From positions 1 to 11,413 of the forward strand of contig JACOZM010000050.1 of the NCBI GenBank assembly GCA_016181345.1: DNA of 11,413 bases, read 5' to 3'. The position numbers and the translations under genes were made by a program. The notes under the pieces were generated by a model. It saw only the letters and a program-made list of their open reading frames with translations, had not been told where the DNA came from and ran no database searches. Origin of the DNA: Candidatus Woesearchaeota archaeon. GTDB taxonomy: Archaea > Nanobdellota > Nanobdellia > Woesearchaeales > GW2011-AR9. Positions 1,985 to 5,073 of this stretch are shown here, one piece after another; position 1 is the first letter of the stretch; each line of letters starts with the position of its first letter.

Positions 1985-4351
1985 ATGATTCAAAAGAGGA
2001 AGGTGTTGCCAGTATTATTTTTCATTTTCTTTTTAGTTGTTTTTAGTCTTGTTTCTGCTGAAATTGATCTTGAAGCAAGTGTTGAATGGGCGCAGAAGAA
2101 TCTTGTTGGAGCTGAACTGCCGAAGGAAGCAGGTTATTTAGTTGGAAATGAACGGGCTGTATTGTATGTTGAAGATAAGGAATGGGTATTGAATGGTATC
2201 ACGAAGGATAACAACGTAGAAAGTATTGGGAAAGGAGAATTAGAAAATCCTACTCTAAAGGTCTATACAACAAGTACAACGCTCATTGAAATCTTAAATT
2301 CAGAACATCAGATGAATTCGTTTATCCAAGCTGAAAAGGCAGGAAAGATACGTATTGATCCAGTCGGAGTTAAGAGAACGGTTAAATTTTCTATCGCTTC
2401 ATTATTGTCACGATTTTTAAAGAGTGATGAGCCAGTTCAACAACTTCAAGACCAGAAAACTCAACGGAAATTACGCCAGGCTAATCCTAATCCAAATCTT
2501 CTTCGTGAAGAAAGTGTAAAACGAAGGTTATCTTCAGATAATCCTCGGCCATTGCCAGAACCACGTCCACAAGAATTAGAACCTGCTTTTATCGTTGAAG
2601 GGAATGAGGGTGGCAATGATAATAATGCTGAAACCAATGAAGAAGGAGAATCTGAAGAAGAGTTGATAGCTTGTGAAACAATGGCAGATTGTCCTGGCGA
2701 GAAGCCGTTTTGCCTAAGAAATGTTTGTCGAACAATAGACGAGTTCATATCTTCAGCTAACTCCTGCGATGATAATGGAGACTGCGGTGAGAATGAGGTA
2801 TGCGATAGTAATGAATGCGTCGTTGATGAAGAAGATGTAGAACCTGAAGAAGAGTTGATAACTTGTGAAACAATGGCTGATTGTCCTGGAGAGAAGCCTT
2901 TTTGCTTAGGGGGTTATTGTAGGACAATTGCTGAGTTTATCGAGAGGGCTAATTCTTGTGAACGTAATGAGGATTGTACTGGAGGCAGAGTATGTGAAGA
3001 AAATAGATGTGTCTTACCTGATCGTCCTGTTCAAAATGCTCAGCTTTGTGAAGATAATTCAGACTGCCGTGAAGGAATGGTTTGTACAGAAGGAAGATGC
3101 GCTATTCCTATTAGTGATGAGGATAATGAAGTTGGAGAAGAAGAAACAGAAGAAGAGTTTCAAGGAATTCCGTCTTGTGATTCTGATCCTGATTGTGGTC
3201 AAGGAAAGATATGTATTGCAGGATTGTGTATTCCTGGCTATCGGCAACAATGCCAAATATCAGAAGATTGTCAGGAAGGAAGAGTATGCAGAGAACAGCG
3301 ATGTGTTCAATTACAGCCAGTTCCTTCACCAGAAGACCAGAGTGTAGGTGAACGACTACGAACAATAATTCGAAGGGTTTTCCGCGATGTTCCAGAGCCA
3401 ATCTCTTATGGTGATGATGTCAACCAGCAATATGTTGATGGTTGTGAAGAGGATGATCTTTATAACAATGGGGAATGCGATGAAGATTGCTTGAATCCTG
3501 ATCCGGATTGTGATCGGGAAGTGTGTGATAATAATGAAGATGATGATGGTGATTCTCGAGTAGATTGCCGTGATCCAAACTGTGATCTCGTAAGAAGAGA
3601 AAGTGATCGGAAGATTTGCCAGTATCGGGGAGAAACTCGATGCACGGACGATTTTGATAATGATGCAGATGGTTCCGTTGATTGTGATGATCATGAATGT
3701 AATGATGATCCTTTCTGTGTAGAAGAAGTTGAGCCTGAATTTTCTACCTTAGGATGGGGCGAGTTTGATCATTGTAAACGAAGATTATTGATCATCAATG
3801 ATTTGCAGACGTGTAGTGGAAGCGGATATCTGTTAAGTAATAAGGTTATTGCTGTAAGAGCTGGGCCTTTAGGCGCAGATTTGACCCCATTAACTTATGA
3901 AGTTCTAGAACAAGACGGGGAAGATGGACGGTCAGCAAGGCTTTGTTCCAGTTTAGAAACGATAGATCCGGCAGTAAGCTTAAGGACAGATGATCCTAGA
4001 GAATTATATGACTCTCGAGGATGTCCTGCGGAAGGAACGTATGAAGGAGTTGATGCAGGATATCGATATTTTGATATTCCAATCGATGATGATTCAACTA
4101 CGCCGATAACTTATGATCTACAGATCAATTTTGGAAGGACTGAAGATTGTGTTGCCGGAGGGGATAAGAAGAAATTTGAAAATAACGTGAATTGCTGCGG
4201 GACAGGATCATTAAAAAGTTTTAGAGTTCCGATCGAAAATCATGGAGTCAATAAAGTCTTCTTTTTGAAATTAAGCTCGGTCGTTCCAGCTTGCGATTAT
4301 TATGGGTCTAGCCAGTGTGATGTTCCTGGACTTACGACGTGCGTTAGTTAA
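1985..4351 (+). CDS. Exported Cys-rich protein with seven 4-Cys repeats and Asp-rich Ca-binding-like segments
   Basis: 788 residues. A Sec signal or anchor lies at ~1-25 (basic MIQKRK, hydrophobic VLPVLFFIFFLVVFSLVSA, likely cut before EIDLEA). Residues ~26-140 form a soluble domain whose end (NPTLKVYTTSTTLIEIL..GKIRIDPVG) faintly resembles SCP2-like folds, a weak inference. A Pro/Glu/Asn linker (~160-225) leads to residues ~230-440, with seven copies of C-x5-C-x5/6-C-x4-C (for example CEDNSDCREGMVCTEGRC), similar in pattern to small disulfide modules such as DKK_N/EB. Residues ~487-578 carry two Asp-rich DNxxDxDG..DC.D..C segments (NNEDDDGDSRVDC, DNDADGSVDC), probably Ca-binding. The C-terminal ~200 residues, with more Cys pairs and no membrane anchor, match nothing I know. 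It is presumably a disulfide-stabilised, Ca-dependent cell-surface protein, possibly adhesive. Its own leaderless promoter and T-run suggest a single-gene unit. Confidence 0.9.
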   Translation: MIQKRKVLPVLFFIFFLVVFSLVSAEIDLEASVEWAQKNLVGAELPKEAGYLVGNERAVLYVEDKEWVLNGITKDNNVESIGKGELENPTLKVYTTSTTLIEILNSEHQMNSFIQAEKAGKIRIDPVGVKRTVKFSIASLLSRFLKSDEPVQQLQDQKTQRKLRQANPNPNLLREESVKRRLSSDNPRPLPEPRPQELEPAFIVEGNEGGNDNNAETNEEGESEEELIACETMADCPGEKPFCLRNVCRTIDEFISSANSCDDNGDCGENEVCDSNECVVDEEDVEPEEELITCETMADCPGEKPFCLGGYCRTIAEFIERANSCERNEDCTGGRVCEENRCVLPDRPVQNAQLCEDNSDCREGMVCTEGRCAIPISDEDNEVGEEETEEEFQGIPSCDSDPDCGQGKICIAGLCIPGYRQQCQISEDCQEGRVCREQRCVQLQPVPSPEDQSVGERLRTIIRRVFRDVPEPISYGDDVNQQYVDGCEEDDLYNNGECDEDCLNPDPDCDREVCDNNEDDDGDSRVDCRDPNCDLVRRESDRKICQYRGETRCTDDFDNDADGSVDCDDHECNDDPFCVEEVEPEFSTLGWGEFDHCKRRLLIINDLQTCSGSGYLLSNKVIAVRAGPLGADLTPLTYEVLEQDGEDGRSARLCSSLETIDPAVSLRTDDPRELYDSRGCPAEGTYEGVDAGYRYFDIPIDDDSTTPITYDLQINFGRTEDCVAGGDKKKFENNVNCCGTGSLKSFRVPIENHGVNKVFFLKLSSVVPACDYYGSSQCDVPGLTTCVS
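2654..3037 (+). repeat. Intragenic duplication, 192-bp (64-residue) unit
   Basis: Copy 1 spans 2654-2845 and copy 2 about 2846-3037, in frame. The first ~60 bases are almost identical (both encode EEELI-x-CETMADCPGEKPFC), and identity then falls while the Cys positions stay fixed (CRTI-x-EFI-x2-ANSC). Each unit contains two of the seven 4-Cys repeats. The high DNA identity at the unit starts suggests a fairly recent tandem duplication, or gene conversion within the Cys-repeat region. Confidence 0.8.
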
Positions 4352-4407
4352 ATGAGTCGAACAGCAGTTTAATATTTTCTTTTATGTTTTTAGTAAGAAT
4401 AATTCGG

Positions 4408-4414
4408 TTTTTTT
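4408..4414 (+). terminator. T-run terminator of the exported-protein gene
   Basis: Seven consecutive T about 55 bases after the stop codon, without a strong hairpin before it, as is usual for archaeal oligo-T termination. It directly abuts the left end of the hairpin element. Confidence 0.5.
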
Positions 4415-4417
4415 GAC

Positions 4418-4598
4418 GTACGTTTTAGTTCAATACTAAAAATAGTGGCAGGTCGGAAAATTCAGCGAGACTGTAGGTATGAATTGTATGAAAAACCATA
4501 TGTTTAAGATCAAAGTCTCGTAACCAATTCTATCTAACGAAGTCATTAATGAATTTTCCATCTTGACTAAGCCACTATTTTAACAAACTAAAACGTAC
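4418..4598. mobile_element. 181-base hairpin element with terminal inverted repeats (MITE-like, or structured RNA gene)
   Basis: The ends are a perfect 13-bp inverted repeat (GTACGTTTTAGTT at 4418-4430, complement at 4586-4598). Nested inside are an 11-bp stem (4439-4449 with 4571-4581), a 10-bp stem (4455-4464 with 4550-4559) and an 8-bp stem with one GU pair (4465-4472 with 4514-4521). The flanks TTTTTGAC (4410-4417) and TTTTTGGC (4599-4606) match at 7 of 8 bases, as an old target-site duplication would. No frame of useful length lies inside. The element could be a non-autonomous transposable element. Alternatively it is a stable RNA on the plus strand, since the right end runs into TTTTT and the GU pair is valid only in that sense. 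No other copy lies in this window. Confidence 0.55.
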
Positions 4599-4609
4599 TT
4601 TTTGGCACA

Positions 4610-4623
4610 ATATTTATAAATAT
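4610..4623. promoter_or_regulatory. Palindromic TATA box, ATATTTATAAATAT
   Basis: A perfect 14-bp palindrome around TTTATAAA, the strongest TATA-like element before L34e. On the plus strand it would start RNA near 4640, giving a leader of about 150 bases before L34e or a separate small RNA. On the minus strand it would start RNA near 4590, at the end of the hairpin element. Palindromic TATA boxes can support transcription in either direction, with orientation set by the BRE. Confidence 0.5.
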
Positions 4624-4639
4624 CCTCTATTCTAAGCTT

Positions 4640-4788: not shown

Positions 4789-5073
4789 ATGCCAGCAGGA
4801 AAACACAAATCCAGGACATTACGAAGGGTTTTCGTCAGAACACCTGGTTCTAATACGGTAATGCATTACCGAAGAAGAAAACCATCGAAAGCAGAATGCG
4901 CTCATTGCAAGCAAGAATTAGCAGGAGTGCCACAAGTATTATCTCATAAACTGAGAAATATGCCAAAAAGTTCTCGACGACCGGAACGACCTTACGGCGG
5001 CTATTTATGTTCTAAATGCACCCGGGCATTGATGAAAGAAAAAGCTCGAAATCTAGGGGGGGCAGAACAATGA
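4789..5073 (+). CDS. rpl34e: Large-subunit ribosomal protein L34e
   Basis: 94 residues, normal length for the family. The N-terminus MPAGKHKSRTLRRVFVRTPG, the block HYRRRKPSKAECAHC and the segment RPERPYGGYLCSKC are characteristic of L34e. CAHC and CSKC form the four-Cys zinc ribbon of the archaeal/eukaryotic protein. It binds 23S rRNA in the large subunit. The stop overlaps the L14e start (ATGA), so the two are translated as a coupled pair. In many euryarchaea cmk lies between L34e and L14e and cbf5 follows; both are missing here. The start is fixed by the conserved MPA N-terminus. Confidence 0.97.
   Translation: MPAGKHKSRTLRRVFVRTPGSNTVMHYRRRKPSKAECAHCKQELAGVPQVLSHKLRNMPKSSRRPERPYGGYLCSKCTRALMKEKARNLGGAEQ

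Follow-up and report, generated by a model that had tools for sequence, protein, structure and literature searches.

Introduction

The usual explanation of a MITE is that a single insertion sequence (IS) has lost its internal part. In prokaryotes they are described as derived from a parental IS, and as short, gene-less, intergenic and foldable elements that carry terminal repeats, target duplications and ends shared with the IS (available text of PMC9769881, PMC3189936 and PMC11578231). IS66 insertion sequences generate 8-bp duplications, and their published ends start with GTAAGCG (available text of PMC11946415). The parts of PMC9208149 and PMC3281130 that are available to us name no IS66 MITE, and our searches of the open-access literature turned up no description of DPANN IS66 MITEs, or of one core common to several end classes. 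REPINs are another kind of intergenic palindromic miniature element, in which compensatory changes between the arms are described, together with a link to RAYT (Y1) transposases (available text of PMC3116915).

The element analysed here lies in a stretch of 11,413 nucleotides from a Woesearchaeota archaeon (contig JACOZM010000050.1), called the window below. It shares with prokaryotic IS MITEs the short, gene-less, intergenic and foldable form, the terminal repeats, the target duplications and ends in common with an IS, with IS66 insertion sequences the ends and the 8-bp duplication, with REPINs, by their description, an intergenic and palindromic miniature form with compensatory arm changes, and with the structured RNAs of Rfam covarying helices and conserved loops. 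It differs from the MITEs by an interior that is absent from 31 IS66 loci, conserved across genera and found between different ends; from IS66 by the lack of a transposase gene, by ends that begin with GTA but not GTAAGCG, and by GGCAC-ended copies that do not fit; from REPINs by its terminal repeats and 8-bp duplications; and from the Rfam RNAs by a core that matches none of the families and shows no wobble excess in the largest set of sequences.

Results

A gene-less element between near-identical flanks

Two arms of a 13-nt inverted repeat, 100% complementary, are found at positions 4418-4430 (GTACGTTTTAGTT, + strand) and 4586-4598 (AACTAAAACGTAC, − strand) of the window. They are separated by 155 nt and bound an element of 181 bases in total. 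The left arm is one base shorter than the form usual in the family, GTACGTATTTAGTT. The element is directly flanked by TTTTTGAC (4410-4417) and TTTTTGGC (4599-4606), the left and right copies of an 8-bp target-site duplication, which are identical at 7 of 8 positions. No ORF of at least 50 aa overlaps 4410-4606; at 181 bp, the window element is short and without a transposase gene. A perfect 13-bp repeat, 181 bases with no gene and flanks agreeing at 7 of 8 bases were what a previous sequence-only reading of this DNA had reported, and re-measurement gave exactly the same values. Folding of 4400-4612 yielded z-scores of −5.7 and −5.9 on the two strands, and none of 200 dinucleotide shuffles folded as well.

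The nearest upstream ORF terminates at 4351, and the downstream ORF extends from 4789 to 5073, with a translation that we take to resemble L34e. Right after the element and ahead of this ORF, at 4608-4625, is an A/T-rich, TATA-like stretch; by eye, two other copies of the element (C29 and C98, see below) likewise stand just upstream of such stretches, and a preference for insertion upstream of promoters is possible. Elsewhere in the window, two small ORFs overlap (641-826 and 795-1139). The second resembles, by eye, a toxin of the PemK/MazF type, and from their sequences the two may possibly form a toxin-antitoxin pair.

Dispersed copies carry different target duplications

The window's assembly (G000) amounts to 902,592 bases in 146 contigs and is 68% complete. 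A DNA search of it with the window element returned 21 matches, pieces counted. Twelve uninterrupted copies, 181-187 bp long and with the window element as one of them, were recognised, along with four copies interrupted by inserted hairpins (C144, C111, C119 and C129) and pieces at contig ends. The end common to the family is GTACGTATTTAGTT. Flanks of 8 bp were compared for the 15 complete copies: they agreed at 8/8 positions in nine copies, at 7/8 in three (window included), at 6/8 in two, and at none in the remaining one, C144. This makes 14 of 15 copies at 6/8 or better, compared to 10 of 210 pairings when flanks were swapped between copies. We regard it as settled by these copies and their flanks that the window element is mobile and duplicates 8 bp of its target. 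None of the 21 places with the family end lies inside a called ORF; in six, there is overlap with a short ORF or with the terminal part of one (C105, C56, C144, C129, C125, and C43 at a contig end).

Multiple copies at unrelated loci with 8-bp duplications had been proposed as a check of mobility by the sequence-only reading, and G000 contains them. The same reading had also considered that the flanks agree by coincidence, both being T-rich. This is rejected, because other copies duplicate different 8-mers, with AAAAGAAG, CAACTATT, GTTTGGGA or TTTATCTG on both sides. A strong hairpin between two genes, with T-rich flanks, is also what a regulatory structure or terminator fixed in place ahead of L34e would look like, the flanks matching by chance between T-rich stretches. 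As related copies occupy many unrelated loci and each locus has its own duplication, we attach a negligible probability to this explanation; a locus-specific RNA or terminator before L34e was ruled out by the same copies.

Over 14 copies (C144 excluded), the duplications differ at 7 of 112 positions, so that most copies seem recently inserted relative to the divergence between copies. We infer that pairing within the element was maintained while its lineages were still moving, and not afterwards through host use. Joined flanks, corresponding to the empty-site sequence, gave no match across the junction within the extracted loci. A match in genome G009, 36 bases within other sequence, was dismissed as chance.

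Two further contigs of the assembly, C17 (L025:4814-4912) and C36 (L026:3860-3958), both end 99 bases into an identical sequence, which opens with GTACGTATTTAGTT and resembles the hairpin MITEs of genome G005. This is probably a second multi-copy element, collapsed in the assembly. That it is the start of an autonomous transposase element was considered and rejected, on the grounds of this resemblance; the rest of it was not found in G000.

The family end also bounds IS66 transposase genes

Of the 352 genomes of the order, 12 (G000 included) had the exact 14-base end; matches numbered 85, versus 4 for the reversed pattern, and form inverted pairs in several genomes. We collected 32 short elements between such ends from nine other genomes; 17 have perfect 8-bp duplications, in a selection that favoured good ends or good duplications. 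When perfect ends spaced by 150-180 bases were sought in genome contigs of 84,980 species, a collection that may leave out the window's own genome, three stretches were obtained, from two Woesearchaeota assemblies (PCXY01 and JACQNF01). A control scan for single end matches was not clean, with 11 matches in 52 kb, 6 of which were real ends of the same kind, and we therefore relied only on exact or two-ended matches.

In genome G033, one exact end and one end with a single mismatch enclose a 1,399-bp element. It encodes a protein of 435 aa that matches DDE_Tnp_IS66 (E 3.9e-33), with a zf-IS66 match below the curated cut-off. The element has no duplication, 7 of the 8 bases being different. An ORF of 429 aa with a weak DUF6431 match (L053:207-1496, contig C12 of G033) runs at its 3′ end into this IS66 element, and looks like another transposase gene that the element interrupted. 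In genome G243, an exact end adjoins an IS66 gene, and the opposite end falls off the contig. The transposase with the same ends that the sequence-only reading had suggested looking for is thus represented by IS66-family genes of these two related genomes; together with the dispersed copies and the duplications, they bear out its proposal of a MITE-like, non-autonomous element with an aged target-site duplication.

IS66 genes (PF03050) were detected in 41 of the 352 genomes of the order, 38 of them above the cut-off. Of 31 loci examined, five have inverted ends starting with GTA and perfect 8-bp duplications. The family end GTACGTATTTAGTT also starts with GTA and lacks the published GTAAGCG, and the IS66 ends of the order vary after GTA. 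Some IS66 elements are bounded by ends known from other MITE classes: those of G244 and G250 have GTACGTGGAAAGCT and GTATGTGGAAAGCT, respectively, at either extremity, and that of G025 has GTATGTATTAAGTT on one side. The window element is most likely an IS66-type MITE, judging from its end, which also bounds the IS66 transposase genes of G033 and G243.

Searches with PF03050 revealed no IS66 gene in G000 (68% complete), G005 (98%) or G008 (100%), and G005 and G008 contain copies with perfect duplications despite the absence of a match. MITE-rich genomes without an IS66 gene by this profile, several of them with perfect duplications, include G005, G008, G000, G002, G035, G036, G038 and G041. 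An unrecognised transposase could then move the elements, the IS66 ends of G033 and G243 being a mere resemblance within a broad class of ends. The copy-rich genomes without the gene, two of them 98-100% complete, would fit with it, and so would a class of ends starting with GGCAC, unlike IS66 (see below). It has to contend with the exact 14-base matches at IS66 genes, with a second class that is matched at both ends (G244 and G250), and with a duplication of 8 bp, as is common to IS66, and we therefore hold it to be unlikely.

The interior is a covarying hairpin

Sets A1 and A2 were made of 12 copies, leaving aside those with inserted hairpins (C144, C111, C119 and C129) and those cut by contig ends (C125, C96 and C43). 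From the outside in, the A1 consensus hairpin begins with the end helix, a spacer and an 11-bp outer helix. A 1x2 internal loop leads to a 4-bp helix, which a 5-nt bulge of the 3′ strand separates from the 10-bp middle helix; a 28-nt linker, likewise in the 3′ strand, precedes the inner helix and its loop of about 40 columns. In the window, the conserved palindromic core of 148 bp occupies 4435-4582 (+ strand, as for all its parts below). It scores 149.0 bits with covariance model R1, among whose building sequences the window copy is, and 141.7 bits with model R2. The 5′ strand of the outer helix, 4439-4449 (AAAATAGTGGC), pairs with 4571-4581 (GCCACTATTTT). GGTC at 4451-4454 is part of the conserved motif GGCAGGYC; its partner at 4565-4568 is GACT rather than the usual GRCC of the family, which is why the window copy misses the exact motif. 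The 5′ strand of the middle helix, 4455-4464 (GGAAAATTCA), pairs with 4550-4559 (TGAATTTTCC), and that of the inner helix, 4465-4472 (GCGAGACT), with 4514-4521; in the latter (helix 5), four pairs are changed on both sides. The linker, unpaired in the consensus, extends over 4522-4549. The bulge at 4560-4564 is ATCTT here, the commonest forms being CTCTT, ATCTT and TTCTT.

Double changes that keep pairing were counted in three sets. In A1 they occupy 26 cells, a value reached by none of 500 shuffles (7.6 cells); slid controls gave 1-3. Sets A5 and A6 were fitted to the structure of the model, which leans towards pairing: with that bias, 22 of 33 pairs have double changes in A5 (21 sequences; 118 cells versus 31 in shuffles), and A6 (99 rows, 91 distinct) has 855 double-changed cells, compared with 242 for shuffles and no more than 212 for slid controls. 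Double changes keeping pairing are 3.5 times commoner than in shuffles. Mean pairwise identity in A1 reaches 98% at the left end; the two outer-helix strands stand at 94% and 86%, and the linker at 71%, versus 44% in loop columns 60-87. The sequence-only reading had opposed to mobility a single copy, always before L34e in relatives, with covarying stems. The stems do covary, and they do so together with mobility; the single copy always before L34e was not seen.

Interiors of 47 elements had a median fold z-score of −4.3, versus 0.0 in 25 control stretches. Among the 32 elements from other genomes, weak folders, hardly or not at all better than shuffles (z above −1.5 on the + strand), were all those of G013 and G033, six of seven in G041, and one each in G005, G040 and G045: a structured interior is not universal among elements with the window's end. 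Covariation was not significant in G024, G046 and G041 taken singly (54, 32 and 300 of 300 shuffles as high, respectively), and was significant in G005 and in G024 and G046 pooled (0 of 300 shuffles as high in each case).

Some copies carry further hairpins. In G000, an extra hairpin AGTGAC...GTCACT is present on the 3′ side of C111 and C129, on the 5′ side of C119 and on both sides of C144, the linker being the site of insertion in C111, C129 and C144. It was not retained as an independent dispersed repeat, as all its matches in the G000 search lay within copies of the element. Of five elements from G024, three have two other hairpins at what is, by eye, apparently the corresponding place of the 3′ linker, and two MITEs of G005 with the window's exact ends contain several adjacent stem-loops (L080:2142-2481, 340 bp, and L076:1501-1837, 337 bp). 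Hairpins accumulate within hairpins, and the arms stay complementary. G005 also holds, in C2, two near-identical MITEs of 102 bp (L072:1413-1514 and L074:1413-1514); they stand at different places with different perfect duplications, GATTAGGC and CTTTCTCA, which we read as a recent jump.

DDE transposases characteristically leave elements with terminal inverted repeats and target duplications of 8 bp. The ends and duplications of these elements follow that pattern, and DDE-type genes were found with the same ends; both facts make it very improbable that the hairpin is recognised in REPIN-like fashion, as single-stranded DNA, by a Y1 (HUH) transposase, even though the bulge is conserved and intergenic palindromes with compensatory changes are known for REPINs (available text of PMC3116915).

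The core recurs in relatives between ends of several classes

R1, the covariance model of the 148-bp interior, was run on the 352 genomes of the order, 8 candidates being scored in each. As it gives the reverse strand of its own palindromic copies 18-40 bits, only stronger matches were relied upon. Besides G000, these were found in G035, G044, G002 and G012 (48-59 bits), where the earlier search for exact ends had detected no GTACGTATTTAGTT. In G002 and G012 the motif reads GGCAGGYCG in the 5′ arm and CTCTTGRCCAAGCC in the 3′ arm; G044 retains CTCTTGGCCAAG, and G035 diverges more. Elements of G046 and G041 scored 20-32 bits, no better than the reverse-strand level, and were not used; weak R1 matches in G263 and G073 were also set aside.

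The second model, R2, was built from the 21 sequences of A5. When 40 genomes of the family were searched with it, 22 contained the core, with at least 143 matches in all and up to 24 per genome among the matches scored. The count is a lower bound, since at most 79 candidates were scored per genome, and 22 of 40 does not describe a random sample, since the 40 genomes were hand-chosen among 48 relatives and include known matchers. Across the phylum, 371 genomes were searched under stricter filters and 13 matched. Twelve are of the same family (G000 included) and one is a weak outlier; the weak match, in G519, was set aside. Elements of G024 and G041 scored 35-51 bits with R2, and four MITE loci of G046 gave no match at E 0.1. 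The hairpin MITEs of G005 were not matched by R2 either and, as these hairpins are strong, a generic hairpin is insufficient for a match. The pattern of the core motif had no match in viral contigs.

We then surveyed the ends around the core at 91 places in 22 genomes (99 matches minus 8 duplicates from overlapping loci, a subset of the matches listed). At 45 places, in 14 genomes, ends agreeing at 9 or more of 12 bases are accompanied by a duplication of at least 7/8 (8/8 at 29 of them); nine more have a 6/8 duplication, and 37, including all seven of G035, have none at these thresholds. Random placement yielded 0 of 68. For 41 of the 45, in 13 genomes, both ends belong to one of six classes, which were defined after the ends were seen and with two mismatches allowed: GTAYGTATTWAG, the class of the window's end (15 places), GTATAAGGAAAG/GTACGTGGAAAG (14), GTAATACTTCAG (5), GGCACNNTCC (5), GTAAGTAATAGG (1) and GTAATTGTTTAG (1). 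Three classes coexist in G008, and two in each of G012, G036 and G041. One class starts with GGCAC, unlike IS66, and we take it to be reminiscent of IS6-type ends. The length of the duplication is constant at 8 bp across these differing classes.

Conversely, the core was not found in the 31 IS66 loci at E 0.1, and in G005 the window's end encloses a different hairpin, without the core. Because the core lies between several classes of ends, and the window's end occurs without the core in G005 and in IS66 loci, core and ends are separable both ways. By these comparisons of sequence, the history of the core is separate from that of the ends, and the core apparently moves between transposon ends of different kinds. 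In G039 (C80, L120:306-471), two GTAATACTTCAG ends paired as in a MITE and flanked on either side by GGTTGATA were also noticed, beside an IS66 locus with other ends; the core model does not match there.

DNA palindrome or structured RNA

Covariation as strong as that of A1, A5 and A6 may also reflect selection on a transcript, the core then being a structured RNA (a mobile non-coding RNA) borne by MITEs. Unpaired bases are conserved in the bulge and in the internal loop, and the linker is better conserved than loop columns 60-87, both in line with this possibility. Of 15 copies, 14 have their lower fold z-score on the + strand, and 10 their lower energy. In RNA helices, G-U pairs are much better tolerated than A-C pairs. 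G-T exceeds A-C in the small sets (11 vs 7 in the A1 core interior, 18 vs 8 in A5), which goes in the same direction; in A6, G-T and A-C are about equal (70 vs 65 in 3,155 cells, from 99 rows with 8 duplicates included), and so they are in unbiased motif-anchored, ungapped counts (16 vs 17, 55 of 115 sequences being anchorable). A G-U strand bias was considered as proof of RNA and abandoned, being absent in the largest sets and weak in the small ones.

The core has no match in any of the 4227 families of Rfam 15, and the window none up to E 1. A pseudoknot between apical loop and linker looked plausible by eye in some copies; it was dropped after a permutation of duplex energies, which were no better within copies than between them (−7.38 vs −7.33, p 0.45). 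With the Rfam and pseudoknot results both negative, and G-T no commoner than A-C in A6 and in the anchored counts, we judge the RNA explanation rather improbable. As RNA would be expected to favour G-U, the near equality of G-T and A-C in the largest set makes the pairing look like Watson-Crick complementarity of DNA, and the evidence favours a DNA palindrome over an RNA.

Discussion

We consider it probable that 4410-4606 is a copy of a MITE present in one family of Woesearchaeota, with ends moved by IS66, a core of separate history, and arms that are complementary at the DNA level. In such a scheme, an IS66 transposase would recognise the ends in trans, and the element would insert between genes with duplication of 8 bp. 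Inside, the core palindrome has GGCAGGYC in the outer helix of one arm and YTCTT-GRCC-AA-GCC on the other, around a variable loop. Complementarity of the arms could be kept by selection for a DNA hairpin or cruciform in mobilisation, by fold-back copying, or by both. The ends, for their part, might be exchanged through recombination, or through a fold-back synthesis that copies one arm onto the other. Fold-back synthesis would make paired ends change together, produce covariation without wobble, and allow modules to be gained.

More tentatively, and at somewhat below even chances, the core, conserved throughout an archaeal family, may be a selfish DNA palindrome that outlasts its ends: it would have acquired, again and again, those of different transposases, and would be kept palindromic as DNA by fold-back copying, in which both arms and both ends are converted together.

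If the pairing is indeed that of DNA, elements of this kind would pass covariation tests as RNA candidates without carrying the wobble signature, a warning for searches of structured RNAs. With a conserved interior and interchangeable ends, it is the core that has the look of a lineage, and the transposase seems to be what can be replaced. Were the core such a re-dressed module, it would be a parasite of several transposases (the IS66 types and the GGCAC type), and not the derivative of one.
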